This document shows, piece by piece, positions 1,764-20,864 of a stretch of 64,000 bases of DNA. The DNA is taken from contig NC_008278.1 of NCBI RefSeq assembly GCF_000058485.1, positions 4,024,962 through 4,088,961 on the forward strand. Reading direction: 5' to 3'. The position numbers and the translations under genes were made by a program. Numbering within the stretch: position 1 is the stretch's first letter; each line of letters starts with the position of its first letter. The stretch comes from Frankia alni ACN14a (GTDB lineage: Bacteria > Actinomycetota > Actinomycetes > Frankiales > Frankiaceae). The notes under the pieces were generated by a model. It worked only from the letters and a program-made list of their open reading frames with translations. It was not told the origin of the DNA and did not search any database.

Positions 1764-2327
1764 CTACTCCGGCAGAACAGTGCGTGGCGGTGGGTCGACA
1801 CCGATACCGCGCAGCGCCTCGTCGACGAAGGCGCCCTTGGCGTTGGTGTAGGCGTTGCGGTTGTCGCGGTGCGCCATGGCCAGGCGCTGTTTGAGCCGGG
1901 CGTACCGCCCGCGCAGGTCCGCGTCGGCGCGCAGCGCGTCGCGGAAGGCGAGCAGCGCGCGAGCGTGCGGATCGGCAGCGGCGAGCACGTGCAGGTGATG
2001 GGTGCGCGCGGCCGGACGGGGGCGCAGCAACCACAGGCGGTAGCGGCCGGCCGGATCCTGCGGCCAGTACAGCCAGCCGTCGACGGCCAGCGCCGGCAGC
2101 GCGCCACGCGCGGCGTCGAGGTCGTGCACCGGGGCGAGCAGGTCGACGACCGGCTTCGCCGGCAGGTCCGCCACCGCGGTGGAGCCGATGTGCTCCACCG
2201 CGCCGGCGAGCAGATCCCCGAGGATGTCGGTGACCCGGTCGCGCTGCTCGGCGAACCGGCCGGCCCATCCCGGGTCGTGGGCGACGAGGTCGACCGGCTC
2301 GTCGGTGCCATCCCCCCGCCCGCGCAC
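1764..2327 (-). CDS. GrpB-like protein (UPF0157, nucleotidyltransferase fold)
   Basis: 187 residues. The family signature is seen as VEHIGSTAVADLPAKPVVDL (about residues 40-60), the GS..V....KP..D pattern of GrpB/UPF0157 proteins, which have a minimal nucleotidyltransferase fold. The C-terminal part, KQRLAMAHRDNRNAYTNAK, matches the family's conserved K..L...........Y...K stretch. Members are often fused to dephospho-CoA kinase, but this copy is stand-alone. The GTG start at 2327 lies five bases after the stop of the acyltransferase gene, so it is probably the last gene of that operon. Biochemical role unknown. Confidence 0.8.
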   Translation of the reverse strand: MRGRGDGTDEPVDLVAHDPGWAGRFAEQRDRVTDILGDLLAGAVEHIGSTAVADLPAKPVVDLLAPVHDLDAARGALPALAVDGWLYWPQDPAGRYRLWLLRPRPAARTHHLHVLAAADPHARALLAFRDALRADADLRGRYARLKQRLAMAHRDNRNAYTNAKGAFVDEALRGIGVDPPPRTVLPE

Positions 2328-2332
2328 GGCGC

Positions 2333-3604
2333 TCAGCGACGCCAGGGAGAGCGCGACGTGCTGCGCGGCAGCGGTTCGGTGGCCGCCCAGATGCGTCGCC
2401 AGCGCGCCGTCGGGGTGTCCGGGGCGCCGCGCAGCCGCGCGGAGATCGACACCGGGCCGGTCCCGCTGCGCGCCGCGGCGCGGGGACGGTGGCGGCCCAG
2501 GGCGCGTGCCTCGCCGACGGCCGGCGTCACCGTCCCGTCGGCACCCTCACGGTCGGCCGCGGTCGGCTGGCGCGGTGGCGCGCCGGACCCGCCCGGCGCG
2601 TCCGCGGCGCCGGCCGCCTCGGCCGTCCCGGCCGCCTCGGCCGTCCCGGCCGCCTCGGTCGTCCCAGCCGACTCGGTCGTCCCGGTCGTCTCCGCGCCGG
2701 CCGGGGCGGCAGTCTCGGCGACCGGCGGGATCGAGGCGGACGCGGGTGAGGCGAGGGAGCCGCAGGGCGAACCGAGGGAGTCACCGGGCTGCTCGGCCAG
2801 TGCCGCCCGGGTGGCGTCCCACCAGCTGGTGGCATCCTCGGCGCACAGCCGGTCGACCTCGGCGGCCAGCCGGGCGGTGAACGTCCGCACATCCTCACCG
2901 GGCAGCGGACGCAACGGCCGACCGAAGCGCACCGTCACCTGCGGGCGGCCCGGCAGCGGCCACGACCGCCCCCGCGGCATCGCCGCGAACGCCCCCCGCA
3001 CCCCCACCGGCACCACCGGCACCCCGGCGTTGATCGCCAGATAGGCCGCGCCCAGCCGGAACCGGCCCCGCGCCCCGTCCCGCGACCGCGTCCCCTCCGG
3101 GAAGATCACCAGGTTCCAGCCGTCGCGCAACAGATCCATCGGCGTCGACGACGGCGCCCCACCGCTGCGATCGATCGGCACCGTGGCGAACGCCAACGCG
3201 CTGGACGCCCCCCGCCACACACTGTCGAAGAAGTAGTCCGCCGCCGCCGTCACCGCGGTCCGCGCACGCACCCGCCCGGGCAGCGCACACAGCAGCATGG
3301 GCGCGTCGAGATGACTGGTGTGGTTCGACACGATGATCACCGGGGTGTCGCGGACCTCGTCGAACACCTCCGCGCCATGCGCGTGCGCGGTCAGCGAGGC
3401 GTGCAGCAACGGATTCATCACCCCGCTGAGGAACGCCGCCCGCGTCGTGCGCGCCGCACCACTGCGCGCCCACCCCGTGGGGAACTCCCGCGACGCCGGA
3501 CGCGCCGCGCGGCCCGCGTCCCCGACCGGCGCCCACGGCGGGCCACCCCGACGAACACCCCGCGCGGCCTCGCGCAGCCCCACACCCCGTCGCGGCCTAC
3601 CCAT
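2333..3604 (-). CDS. PlsC-type lysophospholipid acyltransferase with long low-complexity tail
   Basis: Transfers an acyl chain to lysophosphatidic acid or a related alcohol. Motif I is NHTSHLDAP, the catalytic His/Asp pair; motif III is FPEGTRSRDG; AAYLAINAGVPVVPVGVRG is the block after it. The catalytic domain ends near residue 260 and is followed by about 150 residues of low complexity with six-residue repeats of the type GTAEAA. The start is uncertain: GTG 3613, ATG 3604 and ATG 3418 (just before NPLLHASL) are all in frame. It follows the LarA-like gene by about 120 bp on the same strand, and the GrpB-like gene follows five bases later. Context suggests it acylates a product of the reductase and dehydrogenase upstream. 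Confidence 0.82.
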   Translation of the reverse strand: MGRPRRGVGLREAARGVRRGGPPWAPVGDAGRAARPASREFPTGWARSGAARTTRAAFLSGVMNPLLHASLTAHAHGAEVFDEVRDTPVIIVSNHTSHLDAPMLLCALPGRVRARTAVTAAADYFFDSVWRGASSALAFATVPIDRSGGAPSSTPMDLLRDGWNLVIFPEGTRSRDGARGRFRLGAAYLAINAGVPVVPVGVRGAFAAMPRGRSWPLPGRPQVTVRFGRPLRPLPGEDVRTFTARLAAEVDRLCAEDATSWWDATRAALAEQPGDSLGSPCGSLASPASASIPPVAETAAPAGAETTGTTESAGTTEAAGTAEAAGTAEAAGAADAPGGSGAPPRQPTAADREGADGTVTPAVGEARALGRHRPRAAARSGTGPVSISARLRGAPDTPTARWRRIWAATEPLPRSTSRSPWRR

Positions 3605-3725
3605 CCCGATCACCCATCCGTCCCGAGCACCCTCGTCCTACCGGTCCATCCACCACGACCCGCAACCGGCCGCCGCGCGGCCCCCGCCGGCGCACCGCAC
3701 CCCGCGTGCCTCGCCGCGGTGCCGC

Positions 3726-5312
3726 TCACCGCACGTCGGCGATGAGCTGCGGCGGGCTGTGCAGATAGGTGATCGACGGGTCGCGGCCCACCGCACCCGC
3801 CACGATCTCCAACGCATCCGCCAACGTCGACGCCGCCCGGTACCCCAGCCGCGCGCACGCCGCCCGATCCCCACCCACGAAGACCACCTCGGCCAGATGC
3901 GCCCGCGCCGGCGCCGTCTCATACCAGCGGTGGAACGGATGCACCCCGTGATGCGCCAGCGACGTCCGGTACAACGACGCATACCACGGGTCCGTGGCGT
4001 ACTGCCGCTCGAACTTCGCCTCGATCGTCGCCGGATCACTCGACTCGGCGAGCACCTCCTCGTAGAAATCCACATACGACGGCTGATGCAACTGGGAGAA
4101 CCGCGCCGCCACCGGATGGTAGACGATCATCGCTCCGTTCTCCCGGACGACGGGCCGCCCCCGATGGCGGGCGAAGACGTCGCCGAGCGCACCGTGCGCG
4201 GCGAGCACCGGATCCGCCGGCGCCCCACCCTGATACGCCCCGAACGGGGGCAGCCCCACGACGACGACGTCGCTCTGCCCGTCGACGTCGACCCGCTGCT
4301 GGGCGTCGAGCGCCTCCCACGCCGCCACCGCCACCGCCTGCGGCGCACCGGCCGTCACCGAGGTGATCGCATAGTCGGCGGCCAGATCGCGCAGCACCCG
4401 CGCCCGCCCCCGCCCCCCGAGCAGCTCCAGGCCCCGGCCCACCCCGAACGCCAACGCCGAATCAGCCGGCGACCATTCCCACTCCCGGCGGGTCAGAAAC
4501 GGCGCCGGCCCGAGCGCGGCGTTCACCGTCGCCGTGACCGCGAACACCGGCACCGCCGCGCCCAGCACCGCCCCCACCCGCTGCGCCGCCGCGCCCTGCA
4601 CGACTGCGCCGTCCACCGTCCCGCCGCCGCCCGCACCCGCCGCGGCGGCCTGCGTCACCGCCGCCACCGCATGCACCGCGCGCAGCGACGCATACGACGA
4701 CAACCCCTCGACCAGCGCACCGAGCCCACCCTGCCCGGGGCCCTGCACGATCCCGACGGCGACGAGCAGATCGGCCTCGGCCACCGCCCGAGCGACCTCG
4801 ACCGGCTCGCCGGCGTCGCTGCGACCGACCTCGACGAGGTTCGCCGCGTCCTCGGCGTCGTGGCAGGCCAGCTGCGTCGGCCAGAACGACCGGAACACCC
4901 GCTCCCCGACGATCCCCGCCACCTCGGCGGCACCCAGACGCCGGTGCAGCCCGTTGGCCACCACCAGCGTCACCTCGTCGACACCGGCCGCCGCCGCCAC
5001 GGTCAGCACCTGCTCCAGGATCCGCCCGCGTACGTCCACCCCCCGCACCCGCGGCTGCGGAGTACGCAGATCGTCCACGCTGATCGCCAGACGCATCCCC
5101 GGGCGCAGCAGCGCCGACAGCGGCGCGCTGCCCACCGGCTCGGCCAGCGCCGCGCCGATCGCCGCGTCGACGTCACCGACCCCCGGGCGCGGCTGCGGCG
5201 GATACACCACCCGCGTGCCCAGCGGGAACCGTTCCAGCAGCACCCCGGCGCCGGAATGGACCAGCAGCGGGGGAGTCCGCTCGTCGACCTCGAGCACGAA
5301 CCCCGGTCTCAC
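3726..5312 (-). CDS. LarA-like (DUF2088) protein with altered cofactor motif
   Basis: About 528 residues from the GTG at 5312, which has GGAGAGG upstream. The N-terminal half resembles the lactate racemase (LarA) domain: the DDLRTPQP motif stands where the family has DxTRP, followed by ANGLHRR with the conserved His and ACHDAEDAANLVEVG with a second His. The next LarA motif, which carries a His and the lysine that binds the nickel-pincer cofactor (P-H-x-x-G-F-S-G-G-x-K), reads IVQGPGQGGLGALVEG here. That His and Lys are therefore missing by eye. The C-terminal half (DVVVVGLPPFGAYQGG, ENGAMIVYHPV) resembles the LarA C-terminal domain. Probably not a nickel racemase; a lipid-pathway enzyme is inferred from its neighbours. 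Confidence 0.75.
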   Translation of the reverse strand: MRPGFVLEVDERTPPLLVHSGAGVLLERFPLGTRVVYPPQPRPGVGDVDAAIGAALAEPVGSAPLSALLRPGMRLAISVDDLRTPQPRVRGVDVRGRILEQVLTVAAAAGVDEVTLVVANGLHRRLGAAEVAGIVGERVFRSFWPTQLACHDAEDAANLVEVGRSDAGEPVEVARAVAEADLLVAVGIVQGPGQGGLGALVEGLSSYASLRAVHAVAAVTQAAAAGAGGGGTVDGAVVQGAAAQRVGAVLGAAVPVFAVTATVNAALGPAPFLTRREWEWSPADSALAFGVGRGLELLGGRGRARVLRDLAADYAITSVTAGAPQAVAVAAWEALDAQQRVDVDGQSDVVVVGLPPFGAYQGGAPADPVLAAHGALGDVFARHRGRPVVRENGAMIVYHPVAARFSQLHQPSYVDFYEEVLAESSDPATIEAKFERQYATDPWYASLYRTSLAHHGVHPFHRWYETAPARAHLAEVVFVGGDRAACARLGYRAASTLADALEIVAGAVGRDPSITYLHSPPQLIADVR

Positions 5313-5440
5313 TGTCGCGATCCTCTCCACGTCCGCCCCGATGAGCCACACCCTGCGTGCGCCCAGTCCACCCCCGCCGCCCCCGCCATCCCGATCATCC
5401 CGGGCATCCCGGCCCTGGGCGTCCGCCCGGCCGCGGTCAT
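5309..5440 (-). CDS. Possible 43-residue ORF coupled at both ends
   Basis: An ATG at 5440 overlaps the dehydrogenase stop codon in an ATGA arrangement, and its own TGA (5311-5309) overlaps the GTG start of the LarA-like gene as GTGA. The peptide would be 43 residues, Gly/Met/Ala-rich, starting MTAAGRTPRAG, with no recognisable domain. The double four-base overlap fills exactly the gap between the two larger genes and would allow translational coupling across it. It could equally be chance, or a degenerate start region of the LarA-like gene. Confidence 0.3.
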   Translation of the reverse strand: MTAAGRTPRAGMPGMIGMAGAAGVDWAHAGCGSSGRTWRGSRQ

Positions 5441-6624
5441 GACGGCGCCGCCGGATCGAACGCCACCCGCACCGCACCGAGGCGCCCCGCGTCCCACGCA
5501 TGGGCCAGCGCGTCACGCCACCGGGTCAGCGGATAACCACCGGTGACCAGCCCGTCCAGCGGCGCGGTCGCGGCCAGCTCCCACGCCCGCGCCAGCACGT
5601 CGCCCGCCCCCGGATCGGCGCTGGTCCGCGCCGCCCCGACCAGCTCCAGCCCCCGCGCCCACAGCGGCGTCAGATCCACCCGGTCCGACGGGGTACCGGC
5701 CACCACCACCCGCCCACCCGCCCGGGTCGTGCGCAGCGCCGTCGCCAGCGCCTGGGCGCTGCCCGCCGCGTCCACCGCCACATCCACCCCGCCGAGCAGG
5801 AACGACCCGCCCGACGACGGGGTCACCCGCAGCGCATGCGTGCCGCGGCGCACCCCGGCGACCGCCCCGGCCGGGTCGAACACCGCGTCCGCGCCGAACC
5901 GGCCGGCCACCTGCGCCTGACGCGGATGACGCGCCACGACGGCCACCGACCCGGCGTCGGTGAACGCCCGCAACGCCAGCACCGTGCACAACCCGACCGC
6001 CCCCGCGCCGACGACCAGCACCCGCGCCCCGGGCGCCACCCGGGCCCGATCGGCGGCGTGCACGGCGCGAGCCAGCGCGTCGAGGAGCACCGCACGCTCG
6101 TCGGGCAGACCCTCGGGCACCGCGTGCAGCTGACCACGATGGGCCAGCGTGACCCGGCTCCATCCGCCGCCACCGACCCCGACCTCAGCCGCCCGCGCCC
6201 CCACGCCCGCCCCCGCCTCGGACGGCGAACCTGCCCCCGACAGCGACACGGATCCGGCCGGCGGCGCCACCGGATCGACGACGACCCGGGCACCCGCGGC
6301 CAGCACCCGGCCGTCGGGAAGGGCCACCTGCTGCTCCACCCGGCCGACGACCTCCCGTCCCGGCACGAACGGCAACCCGACCACCGCCGTCAGATACGCC
6401 GACGCCCGACCGGTCACCAGCGCCAGATCCGCCCCGCCGATCCCCGCCAGCGACGGCCGCACCCGCACCCAGCGCTCATCCGGCGGCCGCGGATCATCAC
6501 GGTCCACATACCGCAACGGCACCGCCCGCCCCAGCCCGCCCAGCGCCCCGGCACCCGCCTGGGCGACCAGCCGGGCGGCGACGTGGCGCGCCGGGGAGTC
6601 ATACAGCTCCAACCCGCGCGTCAC
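5437..6624 (-). CDS. Zinc-type (MDR) alcohol dehydrogenase-like protein
   Basis: About 395 residues of the medium-chain dehydrogenase/reductase family. The N-terminal GroES-like part contains FVPGREVVGRV. The Rossmann part has the dinucleotide motif VLVVGAGAVGLCTV, then GGRVVVAGTPS. No obvious catalytic zinc Cys/His set or structural four-cysteine lobe is visible, so it may be zinc-free or degenerate. The start GTG at 6624 overlaps the stop of the reductase-HAD gene (GTGA), implying translational coupling. A proline/glycine-rich insertion lies around residues 125-150. Oxidation or reduction of a long-chain alcohol or aldehyde made by the upstream reductase is an inference. Confidence 0.8.
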   Translation of the reverse strand: MTRGLELYDSPARHVAARLVAQAGAGALGGLGRAVPLRYVDRDDPRPPDERWVRVRPSLAGIGGADLALVTGRASAYLTAVVGLPFVPGREVVGRVEQQVALPDGRVLAAGARVVVDPVAPPAGSVSLSGAGSPSEAGAGVGARAAEVGVGGGGWSRVTLAHRGQLHAVPEGLPDERAVLLDALARAVHAADRARVAPGARVLVVGAGAVGLCTVLALRAFTDAGSVAVVARHPRQAQVAGRFGADAVFDPAGAVAGVRRGTHALRVTPSSGGSFLLGGVDVAVDAAGSAQALATALRTTRAGGRVVVAGTPSDRVDLTPLWARGLELVGAARTSADPGAGDVLARAWELAATAPLDGLVTGGYPLTRWRDALAHAWDAGRLGAVRVAFDPAAPS

Positions 6625-8975
6625 CACCCACCCCCCGCACCGCCCACGCCACCGCCAGCACCGACGGCACCGCCAGCACCGACGGCGGCACGGGCCCGCG
6701 TCGCCGCGGCCTGCCAGCCCCGCTCCACCCGACTGCCCACCACCAGCCGCGGTTCCCCCGCCGCCGCCGCCCACTCCTCGATCGGCCAGCCCGCACCGCG
6801 CGCCACCTGGTGCAACGCCACATCCGGGTTCACCGCCACCGGATTACCCACCGCGCGCAACAACGGCAGATCCGACTGACTGTCCGCATACGCCCACGAC
6901 GCGGCCAGATCCGCCCCCGTGCTGCGCGCATGATGGCCCAGATACGCCGCACGCGCATCCCCGACCAGCGGCGAGGACGCCAACCGGCCGGTGAGCAGCC
7001 CATCGCCGCCCACCTCCAGCCGGGCCGCGACGATCTCGTCGAACAGCGGCGCGAACGGCCGGGTCAGCACCTCCACCGCCCCGGTCAGCAGCACCGTGCG
7101 ATGCCCCGCCGCCCGATGCTCCCGCACGCGGCGAATCCCCGCCGGCTTCACCCGCCGCAGCAGAATGTCCCCGGCCACCTCGGCGACCAGCCGCTCCAGC
7201 TCCTCCGGATCGGCCCCCGCATAACGGGCATACACCGCGCGCATCAGATGCCCCCGGTCACGGCGCTCCGCGCGCACATACCCCGGCAGCGCCGCCGCCA
7301 GCCCCGCCAGCTCCCGGGCCCGCCGCCGCGGCCCGGCGTCGGCCAACCGCATCCACAGATACGACTCGATCACCGTCGCGCTCGCCACCGCACCGTCGAG
7401 GTCGAACACCGCCAGCACCCCGTCGCCGGCAGCCAGATGCCCCGACAGCCGCCGGCGCGGCGCGGCCTCACGCGGACGACGCAGCACCGCCGTCACCGCC
7501 GGGCAGTGCACCTGCTGCAGGTAGTGCCGCCAGTCGAAACACGCCGGGTCGAACCCGAACTCCACCTGGTCGGCCGGATCCAACGCCGCGTGCAACGCCG
7601 CCGTCGCATCGTCGACGTAGACCAGCTCCGCCTTCGTGTACGCCCGGTACACATCCGAATAGCGGCGCAGGAACGCCACCCGGCTCTGCGCCCGTTCCAG
7701 CTCCCCGGCCAACGCCCGCGTCCGCGCCGACGCCGGGACCTGCGCCAACGCCCGCCCGGCCAACCCCACCAGCCGCTCGGAATGACGCAGCCGCGCCTCC
7801 ACCGCCGCCGCCCCCGCAAACGGCCACGACGGCACCGCGATCGCCCCCCGGCCCCGCTGCGGCAGCGGATCGGCCAGGAAGTACTCCCGCACATGGGCGT
7901 ACAGATCACGGAACAGCAGCGGGTTACGAAACCCCGAACACACCGTGTAGTAGGCCGGCCGCTCCACCGGCGGCACCGTGGCCGCCGCGGCCAGCGTCGC
8001 GTTGACGACCAGGTCCACCGGGATGATGTCGACGACCGCGTCCGGGGAGGCGGGGAAGTCCGGCAGCTCCCCGCGGCCGTAGGCCAGGATCAGCGGCTCG
8101 GCCATCTTGAACCCCTCGATCCACCCGGGGAACGGCCGCGCCAACGCACTTTCGATGATCGAGGGCCGCAGGATCGTCAACGGCAACGCGCCGTGATGCT
8201 CCTCCAGGAACCGTTCCCCCAACGCCTTGGTGAACGTGTACGCATCGGTCCAGCCCAGCACCTGCGCCCGCTGCCCACCGGCCTCGACCAGCCGGCGCGC
8301 CACCCACGCCCGGCGCAGCTTCTCCGCCTCCGCCGACACCGTCTGCGCCCCGGCCGCGGCGAAGCGCCGCTGCGCCTGCGTGCGAAAACGCGCCGAGTTC
8401 TCCGGCGAGCGCGAGGCGTCCTCGGTCTGCTGACGCACCCGCGACGCCGAATCCTGCTCCACCCGCCAGTCCACGTCATGGACCAGCGGACCCTCGGCGA
8501 TGTGCCCCGAACGCAACCCCGCCACATACGCCGTCGACACGTGCACCAGATGCGGACGCGCCCCCGCCGCGGCCAACGCCCGCAGCAGCTCCTGCAGCCC
8601 GCCGACGTTGATCCGGAACCCGTCGTCGATCGGCGGGTCGAACGACACCTCCCCGGCACAGTGGATGACGACGTCGATGTCGCCGGGCAACGCCGGCAGC
8701 CGCGACAGGTCACCCTCGACGACCTCGACGCGGCGCGCCACCAGCTCGGCGAGCCCCGCCGCCCCGAGCCGCTCACGCAGCTGGCGAAACGCCGGCTTGC
8801 GCGTCATCCGCGCCAGCCGCGCCACCCCCGTGTGACTGCCCCGCGGCCGCACCAGCGCCACCACCGAGGTGTCGGGGAAGTCCGACAGCAACCGTTCCAG
8901 CAGCGCCTCGCCCATGAACCCGGTCACCCCGGTCACGAACACCCGCCTACCCGCGAGCCGCTCGCGCAGCCCCAC
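6621..8975 (-). CDS. Fatty acyl-CoA reductase-like SDR fused to HAD-IB phosphatase
   Basis: About 784 residues, first gene of the minus-strand operon. The N-terminal half is an extended short-chain dehydrogenase of the male-sterility / fatty acyl reductase type: VFVTGVTGFMGEALLERLL binds NAD(P), HVSTAYVAG carries the Ser, and YTFTKALGE carries the Tyr-x-x-x-Lys pair. The C-terminal third (from about residue 525) is a HAD-IB hydrolase: VFDLDGAVAS with the two Asp, LLTGAVEVLTRPFA as motif II, and YADSQSDLPLL as the acidic motif. The residue after DLDG is Ala where Thr is usual. The GTG at 8975 has GGAGG five bases upstream; ATG 9011 and the far end of the frame at 9056 are alternatives. Likely reduces an acyl thioester and hydrolyses a phosphate; substrate unknown. 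Confidence 0.85.
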   Translation of the reverse strand: MGLRERLAGRRVFVTGVTGFMGEALLERLLSDFPDTSVVALVRPRGSHTGVARLARMTRKPAFRQLRERLGAAGLAELVARRVEVVEGDLSRLPALPGDIDVVIHCAGEVSFDPPIDDGFRINVGGLQELLRALAAAGARPHLVHVSTAYVAGLRSGHIAEGPLVHDVDWRVEQDSASRVRQQTEDASRSPENSARFRTQAQRRFAAAGAQTVSAEAEKLRRAWVARRLVEAGGQRAQVLGWTDAYTFTKALGERFLEEHHGALPLTILRPSIIESALARPFPGWIEGFKMAEPLILAYGRGELPDFPASPDAVVDIIPVDLVVNATLAAAATVPPVERPAYYTVCSGFRNPLLFRDLYAHVREYFLADPLPQRGRGAIAVPSWPFAGAAAVEARLRHSERLVGLAGRALAQVPASARTRALAGELERAQSRVAFLRRYSDVYRAYTKAELVYVDDATAALHAALDPADQVEFGFDPACFDWRHYLQQVHCPAVTAVLRRPREAAPRRRLSGHLAAGDGVLAVFDLDGAVASATVIESYLWMRLADAGPRRRARELAGLAAALPGYVRAERRDRGHLMRAVYARYAGADPEELERLVAEVAGDILLRRVKPAGIRRVREHRAAGHRTVLLTGAVEVLTRPFAPLFDEIVAARLEVGGDGLLTGRLASSPLVGDARAAYLGHHARSTGADLAASWAYADSQSDLPLLRAVGNPVAVNPDVALHQVARGAGWPIEEWAAAAGEPRLVVGSRVERGWQAAATRARAAVGAGGAVGAGGGVGGAGGGW

Positions 8976-9374: not shown

Positions 9375-9565
9375 GGGTGACCGCCCGCTCAACGGGTGGG
9401 CGCCCGCTCAACGGGTGGGCGCCCGCTCAACGGGTGGGCGCCCGCTCAACGGGTGGGCGCCCGCTCAACGGGTGGGCGCCCGCTCAGCGGGTGGGCGCCC
9501 GCTCAGCGGGTGGGCGCCCGCTCAACGGGTGGGCGCCCGCTCAGCGGGTGGGCGTCCGCTCAGCC
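9375..9565. repeat. 19-bp tandem repeat array, about 10 units
   Basis: The unit GGTGGGCGCCCGCTCAACG repeats with an exact 19-bp period. The GGGTGGG core occurs at 9394, 9413, 9432, 9451, 9470, 9489, 9508, 9527 and 9546, and one degenerate unit starts at 9375. Some units have AGCG in place of AACG. Each unit contains the palindrome GGGCGCCC and can fold a small AGCGGG/CCCGCT hairpin. The last unit provides the TGA stop (9562-9560) of the exonuclease gene. The period is not a multiple of three, so all plus-strand frames stay open with a 19-residue periodicity; those frames are not genes. Confidence 0.95.
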
Positions 9566-10726
9566 GGCGGCGACCGCGCCCAGGGCGGACACCAGCCGCG
9601 TGCACGGCCCCGCCAGCCCCCACCGTTCGCTCAGCGCCAGCACCGCCTGCGGATCGGCCGGGCTGACCGGCAGCCGCCCGTCGACGTCGCCGACGTCGCA
9701 GTCACGCACCACCGCGACCACCCCGACCGCGGCGTCGAGATAGTCACGGGCGGCCAGCAGCCGCCGCCGCGCCGCCACCGGCACCCCCTGCACCTGCCCG
9801 CCACCCCGCCCACCCGGCGCCACCGCAGCAGAAGCAACCGAAGCCGGGGGAGTCGAAGCCGGGGGAGTCGGGGGAGCGGCCGCCGGCGGTGGCGTGTCGA
9901 GCGCGGCGAGGATCGCCGCCAGCGACCCGAACCGGTTCAACAGCGCCGCCGCGGTCTTCGCGCCGATCCCGGCGACGCCGGGCAGCCCGTCGCTGGGATC
10001 GCCGCGCAGCACCGCGAAATCGGCGTAGGCCCGCCCCGGGATGTCGTAGCGGGCGCGCACCGACGCCTCGTCGACCACGGCGAACTTCTCCACCGCGTAC
10101 CGCACCCGCACCCCGGCGGCGTCGTCGACGAGCTGGAACAGATCCCGGTCCCCGGTGAGGATGTCCACCCCACCGCCCCGAGCGCCGCCGCCGTGGCGGG
10201 TCGCGAGGGTGGCGATGACATCGTCGGCCTCGAAACCCGCCGCGGCCGCCCGCGCGATCCCGAACGCGTCCAGCACCGCATCGATGATCGGAAGCTGGAC
10301 GGTCAGCTCGTCGGCGACCTCCTCGACCTCCCCGCCCGCCGCACCGTCTCCGCCCGCCCCCACCCGGCCCGCCGCCGCGTCCCCGACCACGGCGCCACCA
10401 GGCGCCGAGACGCCGGCCCGCCCGGCGGGCACAGCCACCCGGTGCGCTTTGTACGACGCCAGCAGCGCCACCCGGAACGCCGGACGCCAGTCGGCGTCGA
10501 AGCAGGCCACCAGCCCCCGCGGGCGAACCTCGACGATCTGACGGGCCAGCACGTCGAGCAGACCCCGCACCGCGTTGACCGGCGTCCCGTCCGGCGCCCG
10601 CACCGACCGCGGCACCCCGTAGAACGCCCGGAAGTACAACGACGGGGCGTCGGCAAGCAGCAACCCGCCGCCCGGCGCACGCGCCGCGCCGGTCGCCACC
10701 GGATCCACCGCCGGGCCTCCCGCCAT
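9560..10726 (-). CDS. Stand-alone 5'-3' exonuclease (PolI N-terminal / FEN-like)
   Basis: 388 residues from the ATG at 10726, which has GGGGG upstream. It matches the 5' nuclease domain of DNA polymerase I without the polymerase: LLLADAPSLYFRAFYGVP (metal-binding Asp), CFDADWRPAFR, AGFEADDVIATLA, ILTGDRDLFQLV (two Asp), then the helix-hairpin-helix block LRGDPSDGLPGVAGIGAKTA. Two linkers are low-complexity: a Gly/Val-rich one after the second motif and a Pro/Ala one (two 15-bp repeats) near residue 300. Such enzymes remove RNA primers or flaps; in actinobacteria a free copy exists beside full-length PolA. Its stop lies in the 19-bp repeat array. Confidence 0.88.
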   Translation of the reverse strand: MAGGPAVDPVATGAARAPGGGLLLADAPSLYFRAFYGVPRSVRAPDGTPVNAVRGLLDVLARQIVEVRPRGLVACFDADWRPAFRVALLASYKAHRVAVPAGRAGVSAPGGAVVGDAAAGRVGAGGDGAAGGEVEEVADELTVQLPIIDAVLDAFGIARAAAAGFEADDVIATLATRHGGGARGGGVDILTGDRDLFQLVDDAAGVRVRYAVEKFAVVDEASVRARYDIPGRAYADFAVLRGDPSDGLPGVAGIGAKTAAALLNRFGSLAAILAALDTPPPAAAPPTPPASTPPASVASAAVAPGGRGGGQVQGVPVAARRRLLAARDYLDAAVGVVAVVRDCDVGDVDGRLPVSPADPQAVLALSERWGLAGPCTRLVSALGAVAAG

Positions 10727-10930
10727 CACCGACCCCCTACCGTCCAGCCCCCCACCGTCCGCGCCGCCCCACGCCGCCCGACGGCCGTATCACCACCATC
10801 ACGACGGCAGCGCCGCGCCACCGCGCCCCACCCACACCTGATCCCGACCGTACCGGCTGTCCCACCGGGACCAGGCAACGGACCAGAAACAGCTCCCTCG
10901 CCCCGCGCCGACCTGCGTACGCTCCGGATC

Positions 10931-11462: not shown

Positions 11463-12710
11463 TCAGTCGGGACGGCCGGTGAGCGCGACGCCGGTGGCCG
11501 CATCGAACAGGTGCAGCCGCCCCGGGTCGAACCACAGCTCGACCTGCGCCCCGCGCACCGCCGTGCTCGCCGCCGCCAGGCGCGCCACGACCTGCTCCCC
11601 GACGCCGGGCACAAGGGCGGCGCCGGCCTCGCGTAGCACCCGGGCGAGACCGGCGGCCTGCCCCGACCCCACGGGCAGCGCAGCGTAGACGTACTTGTCC
11701 GACCCGACCGACTCCACCACCTCTGCGACCACGCTCACCCGACCGCCGGGCCGATCGGCCCCGACGACCGCGACGTCCTCGAAATGCTCCGGACGGATCC
11801 CGAGCACCAGCGACGCACCCCCCGCCCCCGCGGCCGGCGGCGCCGACCCCACCGCACCCTCCCCACCCACATCCACCGCCGCCGGCCGCGCCGCACCGGC
11901 GGACAACGCCCGACGCAGCCGATCGTCCAGCGCCACCGCGCCCAACGGCGAGCGCAGCACATCGCCCTCCACCGACGCCGGCAGGAAGTTCATCGCCGGG
12001 GAACCGATGAACCCGGCCACGAACAGGTTCACCGGCCGCTCGTAGAGCTCCACCGGCGCCGCGACCTGCTGCACCCGCCCCGCCCGCAGCACCGCCACCC
12101 GATCCCCGAGCGTCATCGCCTCGACCTGATCATGCGTGACGTACACCATCGTCGTACCCAGCCGCCGCTGCAGCCGCGCCACCTGCGTCCGCGTCGCCAC
12201 CCGCAGCGTCGCATCCAGGTTCGACAACGGCTCGTCCATCAGGAACACCGCCGGCGACCGCACGATCGCCCGCCCCATCGCCACCCGCTGACGCTGACCC
12301 CCCGACAGCATCCCCGGCTTACGGTCCAACCACGGCGTCAGATCCAGCAGCTCCGCCACCTCGCGGACCCGCTGCTCGATCCGCGCCCGCGGCACCTTCG
12401 CCAACGACAACGGAAACCCGATGTTACGCCGCACCGTCATATGCGGATACAGCGCGTAACTCTGGAACACCATCGCGACATCCCGCTCGGCCGGCCCCAG
12501 CCCGTTGACGACCCGACCCCCGATCCGCAGCTCCCCGTCGCTGATGTCCTCCAACCCGGCGATCATGTTCAGCGTCGTCGACTTCCCGCACCCCGACGGC
12601 CCCACCAGGATCAGCAACTCCCCGTCGGCGACCCGCAGACTCACATCGTCGACCGCCACCTGCCCGTCGGCGAACCACTTGCTCACATGCGCCAGCTCGA
12701 CCTCCGCCAT
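11463..12710 (-). CDS. ABC sugar importer ATPase (SugC/MsmK/UgpC type)
   Basis: 415 residues. The nucleotide-binding domain shows Walker [11 protein letters not shown]-loop [12 protein letters not shown], signature [14 protein letters not shown] and Walker [14 protein letters not shown]. After about residue 235 comes the regulatory OB/TOBE domain ([29 protein letters not shown]) that is typical of the CUT1 sugar group and differs from export ATPases. It follows the second permease gene by ten bases on the minus strand and closes the four-gene operon. A Gly/Ala-rich stretch interrupts the TOBE part. The gene order SBP–permease–permease–ATPase is that of mycobacterial lpqY-sugABC, but the sugar cannot be read from sequence. 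Confidence 0.92.
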
Positions 12711-12720
12711 GACCGCCCGC

Positions 12721-13671
12721 CTATCCCTTCACCGCACCGGACGTCAGCCCGGCGACGATCCGACGCTGGAACACCAGCACGAACACGATGATCGGAATCG
12801 TGATCACCACCGCCGCCGCCGCGATCGACCCGATCGGCTGGGTGAACTGCGACGCCCCGGTGAAGAACGCGATCGCCGCCGGCACCGTCCGCGACGACTC
12901 CGTCGACGTCAACGAGATCGCGAACAGGAAGTCGTTCCAACAGAAGATGAACACCAGAATCGCCGTCGTCACCAGCCCCGGCGCCGCCAGCGGCACGATC
13001 ACCCGCGTGAACGCCTGCCACGGCGACGCCCCGTCCACCGCCGCCGCCCGCTCCAGATCCCGCGGAATCTCCCGGAAGAACGCCGACAACGTGTAGATCG
13101 CCAGCGGCAGCGAAAACGTCAGATACGGCACGATCAACCCGATCCACGTATCGAAGATGCCGATCTGACGCCACAGGTTGAACAGCGGACTGACCAGCGA
13201 GATCTGCGGAAACATCGCGATCAGCAACGCCAGGCCCACCAGCAGCCGCCGCCCCGGAAACACCAGCCGCGCCACCGCATAGGCCGCCATCGCCCCCACC
13301 ACCACCGCCAGCACCGTCGAGATCAACGCGATCCCCACCGAGTTCACCAACGCCCGGGTGAACAGCGACGCGTCAAAAATCCCCCGGTAGTTCTCCCACG
13401 TCCAGTGCCGCGGCACGAAACGCCCGTCCCCGACCGACGCCGGCGTCTTGAACGACAACGACACCAGCCACGCCAAGGGCACCAGCGACACCACCACGAT
13501 CACCGTGTTCACCGCCACCCACCCCGACACCACCGACCCCCGCCGCCCACCACCGCCACGCCCCCGACCACCCCGACGCCCCCGCACACCGAAACGCCCC
13601 CGCACACCGGCCGCCCCCTCGGACGCCATCCCGCCCGCTGCGCCGGCCCCGTCACCCGCCACGGTCGTCAC
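12721..13671 (-). CDS. ABC sugar permease (SugB/MalG type)
   Basis: 316 residues, six predicted membrane segments after a Gly/Arg-rich cytoplasmic start of about 50 residues. The ATPase-docking EAA loop is seen as [20 protein letters not shown]. The GTG start (13671-13669) overlaps the stop of the first permease gene as GTGA, so the two are translationally coupled. It forms the membrane channel with the partner encoded at 13668-14567. Confidence 0.9.
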
Positions 13672-14567
13672 CGGCCCGCCTCCTGCTCCCCGCCGGGCGC
13701 GGCGGTCCCGAACCCCTTCACGAACACGAACGCCACCAGCGCCACCACCAGAAAGATCAGCACGCTCAACGACGACCCGACCCCCAGATTCAGCGCCGTG
13801 AACAGGTTGTCGTACCCGAGAATCGACACCGACCGGGTGTCATACGACCCGCCCGTCAGCACGTAGATGTTGTCGAAGATCCGGAAGGCGTCCAGAACCC
13901 GGAACAGCAACGCCACCAGAATCGCCGGCTTCATCAACGGCACCATCACCCGGACGAACCGCGCCCACGGCCCCGCCCCGTCCACCCGCGCCGCCCGCAG
14001 CAACTCCTCGGGCACCAACGCCAACCCCGCCAGCAGCAACAACGCCATGAACGGCGTCGTCTTCCACACCTCCGCAACGATGATCACCGCGATGCCCCAC
14101 GTCTGCGACGTCAACGGCGCCGCATCCCCGAACAACCCCGACAGATACCCCGTCCCCGGCGTCCAGGCGTACTGCCAGCCGAACGCCGCGACCACCGTCA
14201 CGATCCCGTACGGAATCAGGATCACCGTACGCACCAACCCCCGACCCACCACCGCCCGATGCATCACCAACGCCAACGCCATCCCCAGCACGAACTCGAC
14301 CGCCACCGACACCACCGTGATCACCACCGTGACCGCCAGCGCCTTCCACCACAGCGACGACCCCAGCACCGTGGCGTAGTTCCCCAGCCCCACGAACGAC
14401 GACTGCGCCGGGAAACGCAGGTCATAGCGCCGCAACGACAGATAGACCGCATAGCCGATCGGATAGCCCGCCGCCGCCACGATCACCACCACCGCAGGCG
14501 CACACAGCAGCCACCCCAGCCGCCGCTGCGCCCGCTGCTGCGCCGTGAGCCCCACCCGACCGGCCAT
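13668..14567 (-). CDS. ABC sugar permease (SugA/MalF type)
   Basis: 299 residues from the ATG at 14567, whose A is the last base of the upstream TGA stop (TGATG). Hydrophobic segments begin with [21 protein letters not shown]. The EAA loop reads [19 protein letters not shown], followed by [10 protein letters not shown]. It lacks the long periplasmic insertion of E. coli MalF, as expected for the SugA group. It lies between the binding-protein gene and the second permease gene, all overlapping. Confidence 0.9.
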
Positions 14568-15874
14568 CACGGCACCAACCCCTTCGACTCCAACGCATCC
14601 TCGATCGCCCCCCGCAACCCGCCCAGCGCCGACACCGACACCGAACGCGGCGGGGACAACCGGTCGGCGATCTGCAACGACACGCTCTGATACGCCGGCG
14701 TCTGCGGCCGCACACTGGCGTTGCGCAACGCCGCGTAGATCGCCGCCGCGAACGGATACCCCCCCTCGACGAACGCCCGATCCGAATACAACGCCTCCAA
14801 CGTCGGCGCCAACCCCCCGTCGACCGCCGTACGGATCTGGTTCGCCCGACCCCGCAGGCACCCGATCGCCGCCCGCGCCTGACCCGGATGCCGGCTGTAC
14901 GACGACACCGCCAGGTTGTAACCCCCCACCGTCGTGTGCGACGGCTGACCGGCCACCAGACTCGGCCACTGCGCCCACCCGATCCGACCCACCAGATCCG
15001 GCGCGTTCGCCCGCGCCGACGGATAGACGAACGGATAGTTCAACTGGAACGCCGCCGACCCCGTCTCGAACGCCAACCGGTTGTCGTCCTCCCGCTGGTT
15101 CGACCACGACGGATCCGCCGCCCCCGAATGCGCCAACGCCGCAATCGCCTCCACCGCACGCCGCGCCGGCTCACCCAACGCCACCCGCGTCCCGTCCGCC
15201 GACAGAACCGACCCACCCGCCGAGGCCACCAGCGAGTTGAACAACACCGTGTACCCCTCGTACTGGGCGCCCTGCACCTCCACCAGATGCGGCTTTCCCG
15301 CCGCCGCCAACGCCTTCGCCTGCGCCAGCATCTGCGCCCACGTCGCCGGCGGCCGCGCCACCAGATCCTTGCGATACCACAACAACTGCGCATTGGTGTT
15401 CAACGGCGCCGCATACAACCGCCCCCGCCAGCTGCCCGTGCGCACCGCCACCGGCAGCGTCCCCGCCGTGATCGCCCGCGCCGACGCCGCGTCGAACGGC
15501 ACGATCCACCCCGCCTCGGCGAACTCCGCCGTCCACGTCACGTCCAACGCCAGAACATCCATCGAGGAGTCCTGCGCCGCCAGCCGGCGCACCAGCTGCT
15601 CCCGCTGCCCGTCGGCATCGTTGGGCAACACACTGATCGCGACCCGGTAGGCGCCGCGCGACCCGGCCGAACAGTCCGCCGCCGCCTTCGCGAACGACCC
15701 CGACGACTCGTTGTACACATACCAGCGCACCGTCACCGGCCCCCGCGCCGAACCCGACGCCCCACACCCCACCAACGCCACCACCGCACACACCGCCACC
15801 ACCAGCCCGACCCGGCCCCGCACCACGCAGCGTCGCACCGCCCGACACCCACCCCGGCTCGCGACCCTCGGCAC
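14567..15874 (-). CDS. Sugar-binding lipoprotein of the ABC importer (LpqY-like)
   Basis: 435 residues from the GTG at 15874, with GGGAGG eight bases upstream; the frame is open further up, but that part looks non-coding. Signal peptide: basic start, hydrophobic run GLVVAVCAVVAL, then lipobox LVGC with Cys at about residue 30. The mature part matches extracellular solute-binding family 1: DVLALDVTWTAEFAEAGWI, YAAPLNTNAQLLWYRKDL, VGGYNLAVSSYSRHPGQA. The gene heads the operon, so the promoter should lie in 15875-16206. Trehalose is the substrate of the mycobacterial counterpart; here that is only an analogy. Confidence 0.88.
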   Translation of the reverse strand: MPRVASRGGCRAVRRCVVRGRVGLVVAVCAVVALVGCGASGSARGPVTVRWYVYNESSGSFAKAAADCSAGSRGAYRVAISVLPNDADGQREQLVRRLAAQDSSMDVLALDVTWTAEFAEAGWIVPFDAASARAITAGTLPVAVRTGSWRGRLYAAPLNTNAQLLWYRKDLVARPPATWAQMLAQAKALAAAGKPHLVEVQGAQYEGYTVLFNSLVASAGGSVLSADGTRVALGEPARRAVEAIAALAHSGAADPSWSNQREDDNRLAFETGSAAFQLNYPFVYPSARANAPDLVGRIGWAQWPSLVAGQPSHTTVGGYNLAVSSYSRHPGQARAAIGCLRGRANQIRTAVDGGLAPTLEALYSDRAFVEGGYPFAAAIYAALRNASVRPQTPAYQSVSLQIADRLSPPRSVSVSALGGLRGAIEDALESKGLVP

Positions 15875-16206
15875 CGGCCCGACCTCCCTTCCGGCCTTCT
15901 GGCGAACATGCGGAAGTCCACACCCCGCCCCGCGACGAGGCGACCACCACTCATCCCGCCACACCCGACCACCCACGGCGCAGCTGCCGTGCCCCATCTC
16001 ACGCACCGTAAAACCCCTATGACAGCAATACGCACCAACCCGGCCACCAAGAAAACCGAACACACCCACCGCGTCCCACCCCTCACACCCCTCACACCCC
16101 GCCCAACCCGCCACCCCGACACGCCCCCGACCGCCCACCCCACAGCCGACCACCCCCACACCGCCCCGGCGACCAGCCGACCCGACCACCGGGCAGACTC
16201 ACCAGC
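15875..16206. other. Divergent intergenic region, sugar operon / amidohydrolase
   Basis: About 330 bp without a supported gene. It must hold the start signals of both the minus-strand sugar operon and the plus-strand amidohydrolase. The AT-richest part is around 16005-16040 (GTAAAACCCC, ATGACAGCAATACG), the likeliest promoter zone, but no confident hexamer pair can be named. Confidence 0.4.
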
Positions 16207-17808
16207 GTGACCGGCCCCCACACCCCCCGCCGCACCGTGCTCTACCGGGGCGGCCACATCCACACCCCCACCAGCCCCACCGCCACCGCCATGCTCACCG
16301 ACCACGCCACCATCGCCTGGATCGGCTCCGACGACACCGCCGCCACCCTCGACGCCGACACCGTCATCGACCTGCACGGCGCACTGATCACCCCCGCCTT
16401 CGTCGACGCCCACATCCACACCACCGCCACCGGCCTCGCCCTGACCGGCCTCGACCTCACCGCCACCCCCACCCGCACCGCCGCCCTCGACGCCCTGGCC
16501 GCCCACGCCCGCCACCACCGGCACACCACCGTCTTCGGCACCGGCTGGGACGAGACCACCTGGGCCGACCCCACACCCCCCACCGCCGGCGAACTCGACC
16601 GCGCCACCGGCGGCGCCACCGTCTACCTCGCCCGCGTCGACGGACACACCGCCGTGATCTCCACCGCCCTGGCCGCCGCCGCCGACGCCGCCACCCACCC
16701 CGGCTGGCACCCCGACGGCCTCGTCACCGGCCCCGCCCACCACGCCGCCCGCCGCACCGCCGACACCACCCTGACCCCCAGCCAACGCCGCCACGCCTGG
16801 CAGACCACCCGCACCCACGCCGCCGCCCTCGGCATCGCCGCCCTGCACGAGATGGCCGGACCCGACGTCTCCTCCGCCGACGACCTCGCCGGCCTGCTCG
16901 CCCACGCCCGCACCGTCACCGGACCCGACATCGTCGGCTACTGGGCCGGCGACCTGCCCACCGCCGTCGAACTCGGCGCCGCCTGGGGCGGCGACGCCTT
17001 CGTCGACGGATCCCTGGGCTCCCACACCGCCGCCCTGCACACCCCCTACGCCGACCACCCCCACACCCACGGCACCCTGCACCTCGACGCCGACGCCATC
17101 CGCGACGCCGTCTGCGACGCCACCGACGTCGGCCTGCAGACCGGTTTCCACGCCATCGGCGACGCCGCCATCACCACCGTGCTCACCGGCCTCGAAGCCG
17201 CCGCCGCCAAGATCGGCCTCGCCCGCCTCGCCGCCGCCCGCCACCGCCTCGAACACGCCGAGATGACCACCACCGACCACCTCCCACGCCTGGCCGCCCT
17301 CGGCCTCATCGTCAGCGCCCAACCCGCCTTCGACGCCCGCTGGGGCGGCAAACACGGCATGTACGCCACCCGCCTCGGCCCCACCCGCGCCGCCACCATG
17401 AACCCCTACGCCGCCATGACCCGCGCCGGCATCACCCTGGCCTTCTCCTCCGACGCCCCCGTCACCCCCCTGGACCCCTGGGGCGCCATCCGCGCCGCCG
17501 CACACCACCACACCCCCACCGCCCGCATCTCCGCCCGCGCCGCCTTCACCGCCGCCAGCCGCGGCGGCTGGCGCGCCGCCCGCGCCGACGCCGACGGCCA
17601 CGGCATCCTCGCCCCCGGCCACCCCGCCACCTACGCCGTCTGGGACCACCACGGCGACCTCGTCGTCCAGGCCCCCGACACCCGCATCGCCGCCTGGTCC
17701 ACCGACCCCCGCGGTGCCGTCGCCGGCCTGCCCGACCTCACCGGCCCCACCCCCCACTGCCGGCGCACCGTGCTGCGCGGCCGCATCCTGCACGACGCCC
17801 CGCGCTGA
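16207..17808 (+). CDS. Amidohydrolase family 3 protein (YtcJ-like)
   Basis: 533 residues, GTG start. A metal-dependent hydrolase with a composite beta-sandwich and TIM barrel. Seen: ITPAFVDAHIHT (metal-binding HxH), GTGWDETTW, VDGHTAV, FVDGSLGSHTAAL, ETGFHAIGDAA-type block as LQTGFHAIGDAAI, RLEHAEM, then FSSDAPVTPLDPW with the metal/base Asp. This pattern is that of the YtcJ/Nfda-type exoenzymes, whose substrates are mostly unknown. A second, diverged member is at 39268-40803. Third codon positions are almost all C, in keeping with the C-rich plus strand here. Confidence 0.87.
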   Translation: MTGPHTPRRTVLYRGGHIHTPTSPTATAMLTDHATIAWIGSDDTAATLDADTVIDLHGALITPAFVDAHIHTTATGLALTGLDLTATPTRTAALDALAAHARHHRHTTVFGTGWDETTWADPTPPTAGELDRATGGATVYLARVDGHTAVISTALAAAADAATHPGWHPDGLVTGPAHHAARRTADTTLTPSQRRHAWQTTRTHAAALGIAALHEMAGPDVSSADDLAGLLAHARTVTGPDIVGYWAGDLPTAVELGAAWGGDAFVDGSLGSHTAALHTPYADHPHTHGTLHLDADAIRDAVCDATDVGLQTGFHAIGDAAITTVLTGLEAAAAKIGLARLAAARHRLEHAEMTTTDHLPRLAALGLIVSAQPAFDARWGGKHGMYATRLGPTRAATMNPYAAMTRAGITLAFSSDAPVTPLDPWGAIRAAAHHHTPTARISARAAFTAASRGGWRAARADADGHGILAPGHPATYAVWDHHGDLVVQAPDTRIAAWSTDPRGAVAGLPDLTGPTPHCRRTVLRGRILHDAPR

Positions 17809-17965
17809 CCCACCGCGAAACCATCCCCATAGTCGCACACATGTTCGATATCGTCGAGGGGTGAACCACCGCCGCCCGCCCCGCAGCGGCCCACCGGCGC
17901 ACCCCCACCGCACCGCGAGGCCACATCGTCACCACACGTCGCGCCCCCTTCGGGTCAGGGGCGGC

Positions 17966-19870: not shown

Positions 19871-19902
19871 CGGATATGGCCCCCGATCAGGAAAGGAACC
19901 GC

Positions 19903-20733
19903 GTGGATCTCCACCGCGTTGTCGTCTGCGTCCCCACCTACAACGAGCGGGACAACCTCCCGGACACCGCCCGCCGCCTGCGCGCGGCGAACCCGACGGT
20001 CGACCTGCTCGTCATCGACGACGCCAGCCCCGACGGCACCGGGAAGATCGCCGACGAACTCGCCGACAACGACGACCACATCCACGTCCTGCACCGCGAC
20101 GGCAAAGCCGGCCTCGGCACCGCCTACATCGCCGGCTTCACCTGGGCCCTCGACCACGGCTACGACGTCATCGTCGAAATGGACGCCGACGGCTCCCACC
20201 AACCCGAACAGCTACCCCGCCTGCTCGCCGCCCTCGCCCACGCCGACCTCGTCATCGGCTCCCGCTGGGTACCCGGGGGAGAGGTCCGCAACTGGCCCCG
20301 CACCCGCCTGCTGCTCTCCCGCGGCGGAAACATCTACGTCCGCGCCGCCCTCGGCATGCCGCTGCGCGACGCCACCGCCGGCTACCGCGCCTACCGCGCC
20401 GACGTCCTACGCGACCGCGACCTGACCGGCGTCTCCTCCCAGGGCTACTGCTTCCAGGTCGACCTCGCCTGGCAGGCCTGGCGCGCCGGCTACCGCGTCA
20501 CCGAAGTCCCCATCACCTTCGTCGAACGCGAACGCGGCACCTCCAAGATGAGCAACGCCATCGTCGCCGAAGCCTTCTGGCGCGTCGCCTGGTGGGCCGC
20601 CACCACCCGGCGGCGCCGACCAACCCCCCGCACCCCCCACCTCGCGGCCAACCCCACCCCGCGCCAACCCACCACCGACCCCGACGTCCCCGCCGGCCAC
20701 CCCGACAACGTCACCACCAGCCGCGGCGCCTGA
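19903..20733 (+). CDS. ppm1: Polyprenol monophosphomannose synthase
   Basis: 276 residues from the GTG at 19903, chosen because AGGAAAGGAACC stands just before it; an ATG at 19876 is also in frame. A GT2 glycosyltransferase that moves mannose from GDP-mannose to polyprenyl phosphate, the donor for lipoglycans and protein O-mannosylation. Motifs: VCVPTYNERDNL, VIDDASPDGTG, EMDADGSHQPEQL (the DxD), VIGSRWVPGGEV, and the family block ERERGTSKMS. Being next to lnt is the known actinobacterial linkage. The last 45 residues are Pro/Arg/Thr-rich. Confidence 0.93.
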   Translation: MDLHRVVVCVPTYNERDNLPDTARRLRAANPTVDLLVIDDASPDGTGKIADELADNDDHIHVLHRDGKAGLGTAYIAGFTWALDHGYDVIVEMDADGSHQPEQLPRLLAALAHADLVIGSRWVPGGEVRNWPRTRLLLSRGGNIYVRAALGMPLRDATAGYRAYRADVLRDRDLTGVSSQGYCFQVDLAWQAWRAGYRVTEVPITFVERERGTSKMSNAIVAEAFWRVAWWAATTRRRRPTPRTPHLAANPTPRQPTTDPDVPAGHPDNVTTSRGA

Positions 20734-20809
20734 CCACCACCCACACCCTCACCCCTCACCCACCGCAACCACCACATCACCCCCGAACCATCACCTCAGG
20801 CATGCCAAA

Positions 20810-20840: not shown

Positions 20841-20864
20841 CGCAACCGCCGCCAAACAGCCCCG

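Follow-up and report, generated by a model that had tools for sequence, protein, structure and literature searches.

A minus-strand operon of Frankia alni ACN14a is probably the core of an actinobacterial ether-lipid module, in which a nickel-pincer enzyme and a zinc dehydrogenase stand where an FAD-dependent enzyme of the AGPS (alkyl-DHAP synthase) kind and a short-chain dehydrogenase/reductase (SDR) stand elsewhere. The operon occupies positions 2333-8975 of a stretch of 64,000 nucleotides (NCBI RefSeq assembly GCF_000058485.1, contig NC_008278.1, positions 4,024,962 to 4,088,961), here called the window, in a genome of 7,497,934 bases on a single contig. It encodes a fusion of a fatty acyl-CoA reductase (FAR) with a HAD phosphatase, a medium-chain dehydrogenase/reductase (MDR), a LarA-family protein of the group LarAH14 (LarAH) and a PlsC-type acyltransferase, and Pfam backs each of these assignments. 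The same gene order recurs across actinobacteria; close AGPS and LarAH14 exclude each other in the genomes searched outside the window's genus; and the exchange between them has occurred repeatedly. Within the window's genus, MDR and LarAH have lost their metal-binding and cofactor-binding residues, and cofactor genes have disappeared from the genomes. The lineage of the window has probably switched to AGPS and retained MDR and LarAH, now metal-less, as relics.

The operon and its conservation

The genes, domains and altered sites of the operon, and the gene that follows it, are these.

6621..8975, minus strand: coding sequence (CDS) of the fatty-acyl-reductase/HAD-IB fusion, 784 amino acids from GTG 8975, a single open reading frame; Pfam NAD_binding_4 2.7e-51 and HAD 3.6e-31
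7995..8936, minus strand: NAD_binding_4 reductase domain; GxxGxxG at 8907-8933, YxxxK at 8220-8243
6855..7412, minus strand: HAD-IB phosphatase domain; Pfam HAD 3.6e-31, motif I FDLDGA at 7383-7406, motif IV at 6858-6890
5437..6624, minus strand: CDS of an MDR-type dehydrogenase without zinc ligands; Pfam ADH_zinc_N/ADH_N
3726..5312, minus strand: CDS of a LarAH14-type LarA homologue without the nickel-pincer lysine; Pfam Lar_N 7e-32
4713..4760, minus strand: degenerate cofactor loop AVGIVQGPGQGGLGAL, Lys and Asn lost; in most relatives YVNVNLVAMDGGHKSV or a close variant occupies this place
2333..3613, minus strand: CDS of a PlsC-type acyltransferase with a long low-complexity C-terminal part; Pfam Acyltransferase 5.6e-24
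1764..2327, minus strand: GrpB-family gene, outside the conserved module; Pfam GrpB 1.5e-41

The fusion and MDR overlap by 4 bases, and gaps of 124, 112 and 5 bases separate MDR from LarAH, LarAH from PlsC and PlsC from GrpB. These coordinates bear out the tightly packed minus-strand operon described in the original prediction, an earlier reading of the same DNA, and Pfam agrees with its assignment of an acyl-reductase-HAD fusion, an MDR, a DUF2088 protein and a PlsC (DUF2088 is the older name of Lar_N). Its range was too wide, beginning at 1764 and so taking in GrpB (1764-2327), which is no part of the module; GrpB lies beside PlsC in two of 20 mapped loci (L033, L034) and in none of the 80 named loci described below, and was rejected as an operon member.

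By its motifs and its likeness to a solved enzyme the fusion is a FAR, with reduction of acyl-CoA or of acyl-ACP (acyl carrier protein) as its predicted activity. Residues 2-497 match the fatty acyl-CoA reductase PDB 7eoz at 1.9e-52, and a Sterile C-terminal domain reaches 33.1 bits, slightly below the cut-off of 35.4. The HAD part carries the HAD-IB motifs FDLDGA, LLTG and YADSQSDLPLL; in motif I both Asp are present, with Ala instead of the Thr of most relatives, and TIGR01490 scores 94.4 bits, below its cut-off of 98.3. At five loci outside the window's genus motif I reads FDLEG, the second Asp being lost, and the phosphatase there may be inactive. The start of the fusion is ambiguous, as GTG 8975 is closely preceded by GGAGGT and the ATGs at 9011 and 9056 are also possible; LarAH likely starts at GTG 5312, with GGAGAGGA upstream. 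PlsC has both signature motifs of its family, HX4D as NHTSHLDA (3302-3325) and FPEGTR as FPEGTRS (3083-3103).

Conservation was examined in the best 80 of 575 confirmed LarAH14 matches, with no random draw (the named loci), where neighbouring genes were counted by tblastn within the fetched flanks. These include Nocardioides, Kribbella, Actinopolymorpha, Actinomadura, Actinoallomurus, Streptomyces, Haloactinopolyspora and Nitriliruptorales. The fusion was seen in 74, MDR in 79 and PlsC in 77 of them, and all four genes in 71. In eight of the nine incomplete loci the missing gene falls past the contig end, and the ninth (L113) has no PlsC match in its remaining 1.6 kb. Among 20 loci mapped in the family and class, 18 keep the four genes together in unchanged order; L048 is truncated at a contig end, and at L052 the fusion is accompanied by PlsC genes but by neither MDR nor LarAH. 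Genomes drawn from the phylum held the fusion in 82 of 396 cases. Of those outside the class, G419 alone yielded no LarAH14 match, and the one in G253 is only about 35% identical; both have MDR beside the fusion on contigs that end at or in MDR, and therefore look like assembly cuts. Adjacency was checked in five phylum genomes: fusion, MDR, LarAH and PlsC stand together in G245 and G480, and in G226 the fusion and MDR are followed by LarAH about 2.5 kb farther along. The shared gene order is far beyond chance. The gene-neighbourhood comparison that the original prediction had proposed as its own check thus came out for it: order and strand are the same in 71 of 71 complete loci, LarAH14 accompanies the fusion in 78 of 79 genomes outside the class, and non-conservation is refuted. 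At 13 loci of Nocardioides (e.g., L087:2430-4043) an AMP-binding acyl-CoA ligase lies upstream of the operon, with a peroxiredoxin in several.

AGPS in place of LarAH14, and joint decay in Frankia

The genes larB, larC and larE all lie in the flanks of 21 of the 80 named loci (LarC in 23, LarE in 22, LarB in 21), and Pfam confirms these cofactor genes on example loci; LarAH14 therefore normally uses the nickel-pincer nucleotide (NPN) cofactor. Across 196 genomes of the class, LarC was found in 26 of the 27 LarAH14 genomes outside the window's genus (Frankia in the narrow sense, 13 genomes) as against 26 of 163 without LarAH14 (Fisher 1.6e-16, relatedness ignored), and the single genome missing it, G027, is a fragmented assembly. 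Twenty-two other Frankiaceae have LarC in 20 cases and LarE above cut-off in 21, and in 12 of them the operon copy is the only Lar_N match. Residues were mapped through HMMER alignments to PDB 9q2u and others and through those named in PMC7583248 and PMC12611868. The NPN lysine, the first catalytic His, the loop Asn and the nickel His are all kept at each of the 107 loci outside the genus, which represent 98 distinct sequences with some contigs counted twice; which of two loop Asn aligns with the second catalytic His is uncertain. MDR at such loci retains its catalytic Cys in 101 of 101 and its His in 100 of 101 readable cases, the exception being L116, and the structural Cys are retained there too. 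On NCBIfam NF052592 (LarAH14/15/16, cut-off 740), three intact relatives score 902, 919 and 905 bits.

A second version of the locus accompanies the fusion where LarAH14 is missing. The class sample holds 49 fusion genomes, of which 26 have LarAH14 outside the window's genus, five belong to that genus and 18 lack LarAH14. Fifteen of these last 18 loci were fetched, the remaining three being judged from coordinates, and most of the 15 carry an FAD protein of the AGPS kind with an SDR and a PlsC. The FAD protein of G052, so accompanied, matches the alkyl-DHAP synthase PDB 2uuu at 2e-128. Seven loci (L157-L161, L172, L173) show the order fusion-SDR-PlsC-AGPS, and at L162-L164, L166, L167 and L169 AGPS, PlsC and SDR lie on the opposite strand beside the fusion. 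By coordinates, AGPS is on the contig of the fusion within about 4 kb in 16 of the 18 genomes; in G209 it is on a separate contig with the SDR still beside the fusion, and in G211 some 2 Mb separate the two, AGPS having PlsC and SDR as its neighbors. Homologous fusion loci in which AGPS and SDR replace MDR and LarA point toward ether lipids. Genes resembling diiron acyl-ACP desaturases, with weak FA_desaturase_2/Rubrerythrin matches, adjoin the fusion at L162-L167, and similar proteins occur at L104, L112, L115, L128-L131 and L170; they are candidates for desaturation or hydroxylation of the alkyl chain, perhaps toward plasmalogen-like lipids.

The distribution of AGPS was then counted with a definition of close AGPS as at least 63% identity to the G052 protein and at least 777 bits, the next matches reaching at most 392 bits. 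Close AGPS occurs in 25 of the 196 class genomes, namely the 18 with a fusion lacking LarAH14 and all seven of the window's genus; by fusion group this is 0/26 with LarAH14 outside the genus, 5/5 in the genus and 18/18 without LarAH14. A further search found it in six of six additional genomes of the genus, in none of 11 other Frankiaceae and in none of 63 fusion genomes outside the class (16 of 79 were left out as same-genus repeats). The totals are 13/13 in the window's genus and 0/100 (27 + 11 + 62) in LarAH14 genomes outside it, where the 62 from outside the class were counted by profile match with residues unread and include the distant match of G253. G419, which has no LarAH14 match, has no AGPS either, its contig ending just past MDR. 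In the window's own genome the close AGPS (G000:C1:3023244-3024902; L174:9245-10978) lies about 1 Mb from the operon, matches 2uuu at 1.2e-119 and agrees in its motifs with those at AGPS-type loci; FAR, acyltransferase and AGPS, the gene complement of an AGPS ether-lipid pathway, are all present in this genome. The gene just upstream of this AGPS resembles, by eye, an F420/luciferase-type oxidoreductase.

The tree built from 84 fusion proteins (IQ-TREE in quick mode, LG+G4, loci hand-chosen to thin near-copies) requires three state changes, each forced by well-supported branches, and shuffled labels average 21.1. The first AGPS group is the window's genus (nine rows), nested within LarAH14-bearing Frankiaceae; the second comprises families f19 and f35 (14 rows), with two LarAH14-bearing f19 genomes as neighbors; the third is G211 alone. 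A single lineage effect as the cause of the exclusion was rejected on these three forced switches, which come from a quick method with one long-branch case.

In the window's genus, both partners of the fusion have decayed. The window MDR has Gly for the catalytic Cys in GIGGAD (6427-6444), Arg for His in PGRE (6346-6363) and none of the four structural Cys; catalytic Cys and His are lost in 9/9 readable genomes of the genus, where most of the structural Cys have disappeared as well. The NPN lysine (Lys198) and the loop Asn of LarAH have likewise gone in 9/9. The window copy keeps the first catalytic His (His123) and the nickel His (His214), and across the genus His123 is lost in five of nine, to Asn or Gly, and His214 in two of nine. 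An alignment artefact was rejected as the source of these losses: the window loop contains no Lys or His, and the lysine is gone in all nine genomes. On NF052592 the window LarAH reaches 554 bits, below the cut-off. LarC had no match in 12 of the 13 genomes, G012 holding a 46-residue fragment, and LarE reached its cut-off in none of the 13. The fusion itself, with an orthologue found in nine of 13, retains GxxGxxG and YxxxK in 9/9, and reductase and PlsC motifs are intact wherever readable. Since the metal and cofactor residues of MDR and LarA, together with larC and larE, are lost, the window operon is no working four-enzyme set, a point that the original prediction missed. To take the window LarA at face value as an NPN isomerase was likewise rejected, the lysine, larC and larE being missing.

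Ratios of nonsynonymous to synonymous substitution rates (dN/dS), computed by the Nei-Gojobori method in a script of our own on the best tblastn piece per gene, are below 1 in all seven pairs of the genus (LarAH 0.15-0.44, MDR 0.21-0.70). Relative to the reductase, the medians are 2.19 for MDR and 1.48 for LarAH in these seven pairs, compared with 0.71 and 0.68 for the 15 pairs from outside the genus; the medians omit three rows that lacked a gene (G014-G026 and two for G007-G004), the pairs share species and are not independent, and in the genus pair G005-G001 the LarAH ratio is 0.70. From these sequences, LarAH and MDR of Frankia are best read as metal-less relics or structural leftovers under relaxed but still purifying selection.

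Elsewhere in the window, ABC transporter genes (a MalK-like ATPase and two permeases) occupy 11463-15107 on the minus strand, adjoining a 5'-3' exonuclease gene at 9560-10729. GC skew is strongly negative (about -0.3) over 12001-24000, stopping near 24 kb, and probably reflects gene orientation.

A proposed route and its alternatives

Under the ether-lipid reading, we infer the lipid product, the substrate of each enzyme and the functional nature of the swap as follows. The fusion reductase would turn an activated acyl chain into a fatty alcohol (or aldehyde), PlsC would acylate the glycerol backbone, and the HAD domain would strip a phosphate. In most sampled carriers, nickel-pincer LarAH14 and zinc MDR would carry out or enable the joining of alkyl chain and backbone and set the oxidation state of the backbone, a place that FAD-dependent AGPS and the SDR reductase would fill in other lineages. 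Frankia in the narrow sense would rely on AGPS at a separate locus, with larC and larE lost, MDR and LarAH14 left as relics, and reductase-HAD and PlsC intact. The original prediction was probably right about a dedicated route to an unusual lipid, with an ether-type phospholipid among its guesses; AGPS beside the fusion weakens a reading as wax esters only. It was also right to single out the DUF2088 partner as the surprising part.

How LarAH14 might act is more tentative. It is possible, though doubtful, that LarAH14 itself forms the ether bond as a nickel-pincer "borrowed hydride" synthase, with zinc MDR setting the oxidation state of the backbone. LarAH14 would take a hydride from the fatty alcohol, or start from the aldehyde of the reductase; the aldehyde would add to a hydroxyl of the glycerol backbone, and the returned hydride would yield the ether. 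For one LarA with a single histidine, the authors speculatively modeled an unidentified ligand as a phosphorylated sugar (PMC12611868), and a backbone of glycerol phosphate would be compatible with this.

Several observations weigh against the ether-lipid reading or parts of it. The MDR and LarAH frames of the genus remain open and constrained, which a pure relic leaves unexplained, and neither an SDR nor a PlsC of these families lies alongside the AGPS of the window's genome. AGPS-like paralogues of at most 44% identity are common, also in LarAH14 genomes, and may be active; one in the window's genome matches 2uuu at 298 bits and retains the HHH motif. Because such a distant paralogue still matches 2uuu and keeps HHH, LarAH14 genomes are not uniformly without AGPS-like enzymes; at a threshold of 1e-60, no such paralogue was found in 55 of the 63 fusion genomes outside the class. 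Four fragmented genomes of the window's genus (G002, G006, G008, G009) have AGPS and no fusion that was found, of which G008 looks like an assembly cut because a LarAH14 piece lies at a contig start. Moreover, larC persists in two of the 18 AGPS-type genomes (G174, G211), the switch of G211 depends on a long branch of a tree built by a quick method, and three events are few in a tree that treats relatedness only roughly. To our knowledge, no nickel-pincer chemistry for ether formation has been described.

Alternatively, MDR and LarAH14 may make or modify something else, such as a 2-hydroxy fatty acid, a diol or a head group, so that the mutual exclusion with AGPS would reflect lineage or habitat and not the substitution of one step for another. 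In the available text of PMC7583248 and PMC11770544, characterized LarA-family enzymes racemize or epimerize 2-hydroxy acids, and the sample contains few independent switches (three). We consider this account unlikely: AGPS adjoins this very fusion in all but two of the 18 AGPS-type genomes, three separate lineages have exchanged one pair for the other, and MDR and LarAH14 have both decayed in the window's genus, where AGPS occurs. It is further disfavored by the position aligned with LarA Arg75, which reads Ser at all 107 loci outside the genus (sequence alignment only); in a known LarA enzyme, Arg75 contacts the NPN phosphate and the substrate carboxylate (PMC12611868). Far less probable is the view that MDR and LarAH14 of the window are still enzymes, metal-free and with rebuilt active sites. 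The open frames, the dN/dS below 1 in seven pairs and the retention of His123 in four of nine genomes would accord with it. However, none of the nine retains Lys198, the losses of His123 resemble drift because they differ between species (Asn or Gly), and no new shared motif was noticed in the aligned loops, for which no systematic search was made. A pathway for fatty alcohols and wax esters only, in which the reductase makes alcohols that the PlsC-like enzyme esterifies, would suit the match to a solved FAR and the presence of an acyl-CoA ligase close to the operon at 13 of the 80 named loci, each labeled Nocardioides, yet it is equally improbable, being weakened by AGPS adjoining the fusion and leaving this, the HAD domain and the cofactor genes unexplained.

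With the ether-lipid reading, genomic context gives the orphan LarAH14 a likely pathway (ether lipids), partners (the reductase-HAD fusion, a zinc dehydrogenase and PlsC) and a substitute (AGPS with SDR), and its reaction thereby becomes directly testable. If the reading is true, nickel-pincer enzymes reach past hydroxy-acid isomerization, and many actinobacteria have an unrecognized ether-lipid route. The window is a natural experiment, in which two metalloenzymes decayed jointly without two cofactor genes while their partners stayed intact and a known enzyme family was present. The copies in the window's genus should not inherit "NPN-dependent hydroxyacid isomerase" as their NCBIfam name.

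Comparison with known systems

The LarA protein of the operon belongs to the same lineage as the LarA superfamily group LarAH14 (NF052592; PMC7583248), from which the window copy differs in falling below the profile cut-off and in having neither the NPN lysine nor, in its genome, larC and larE. One LarAH14, from "Frankia sp.", was purified, given NPN and found inactive in seven racemase assays (Desguin et al. 2020, PMC7583248). If that protein came from the window's genus, the lost lysine would explain its inactivity; if its source was a different genus, the right substrate may have been absent from the assays. The available main text of PMC7583248 and PMC12611868 makes no mention of a lipid operon for LarAH14. 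Among titles and abstract openings of openly licensed literature, we recognized no operon description linking LarA to an acyl reductase, an acyltransferase, Frankia or ether lipids, and no report of alkyl-ether lipids in Frankia stood out among the titles and abstract openings seen. By sequence, the closest solved structures to LarAH14 are the single-histidine enzymes LarA_Sp and LarA_Bw (PDB 9q2u, 9q3j), in which the second catalytic His is Asn, as in the LarAH14 group; they lie among sugar genes, whereas LarAH14 lies in a lipid operon (PMC12611868).

The known ether-lipid pathway, in which the roles of AGPS, acyltransferase and reductase have been described (PMC9131029), offers a close parallel to the module. 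Myxococcus xanthus MXAN_1676-1674 combines a FAR-type reductase, an acyltransferase, AGPS and a protein of an NAD-dependent reductase family, as here, and the elb operon of the same species also carries a HAD protein. In contrast, the available text of PMC9131029 names no LarA or MDR in the Myxococcus systems, where the fusion partner of FAR is an acyltransferase or ligase/ACP domains and not HAD. Pfam gave no match for an ElbD-type ligase or ACP domain on the window fusion (reductase, Sterile-like and HAD only), and the AMP-binding ligase of Nocardioides recalls the ligase domain of ElbD. Should LarAH14 form the ether, LarA chemistry would extend beyond the racemization and epimerization of 2-hydroxy acids, and a new route would stand beside AGPS, Elb and Ger/PlsA. 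The reductive ether and plasmalogen routes of Ger and PlsA-PlsR also form ether bonds in bacteria, but PlsA and PlsR reduce a pre-existing ester, unlike the module described here (PMC9702350, PMC11868695).

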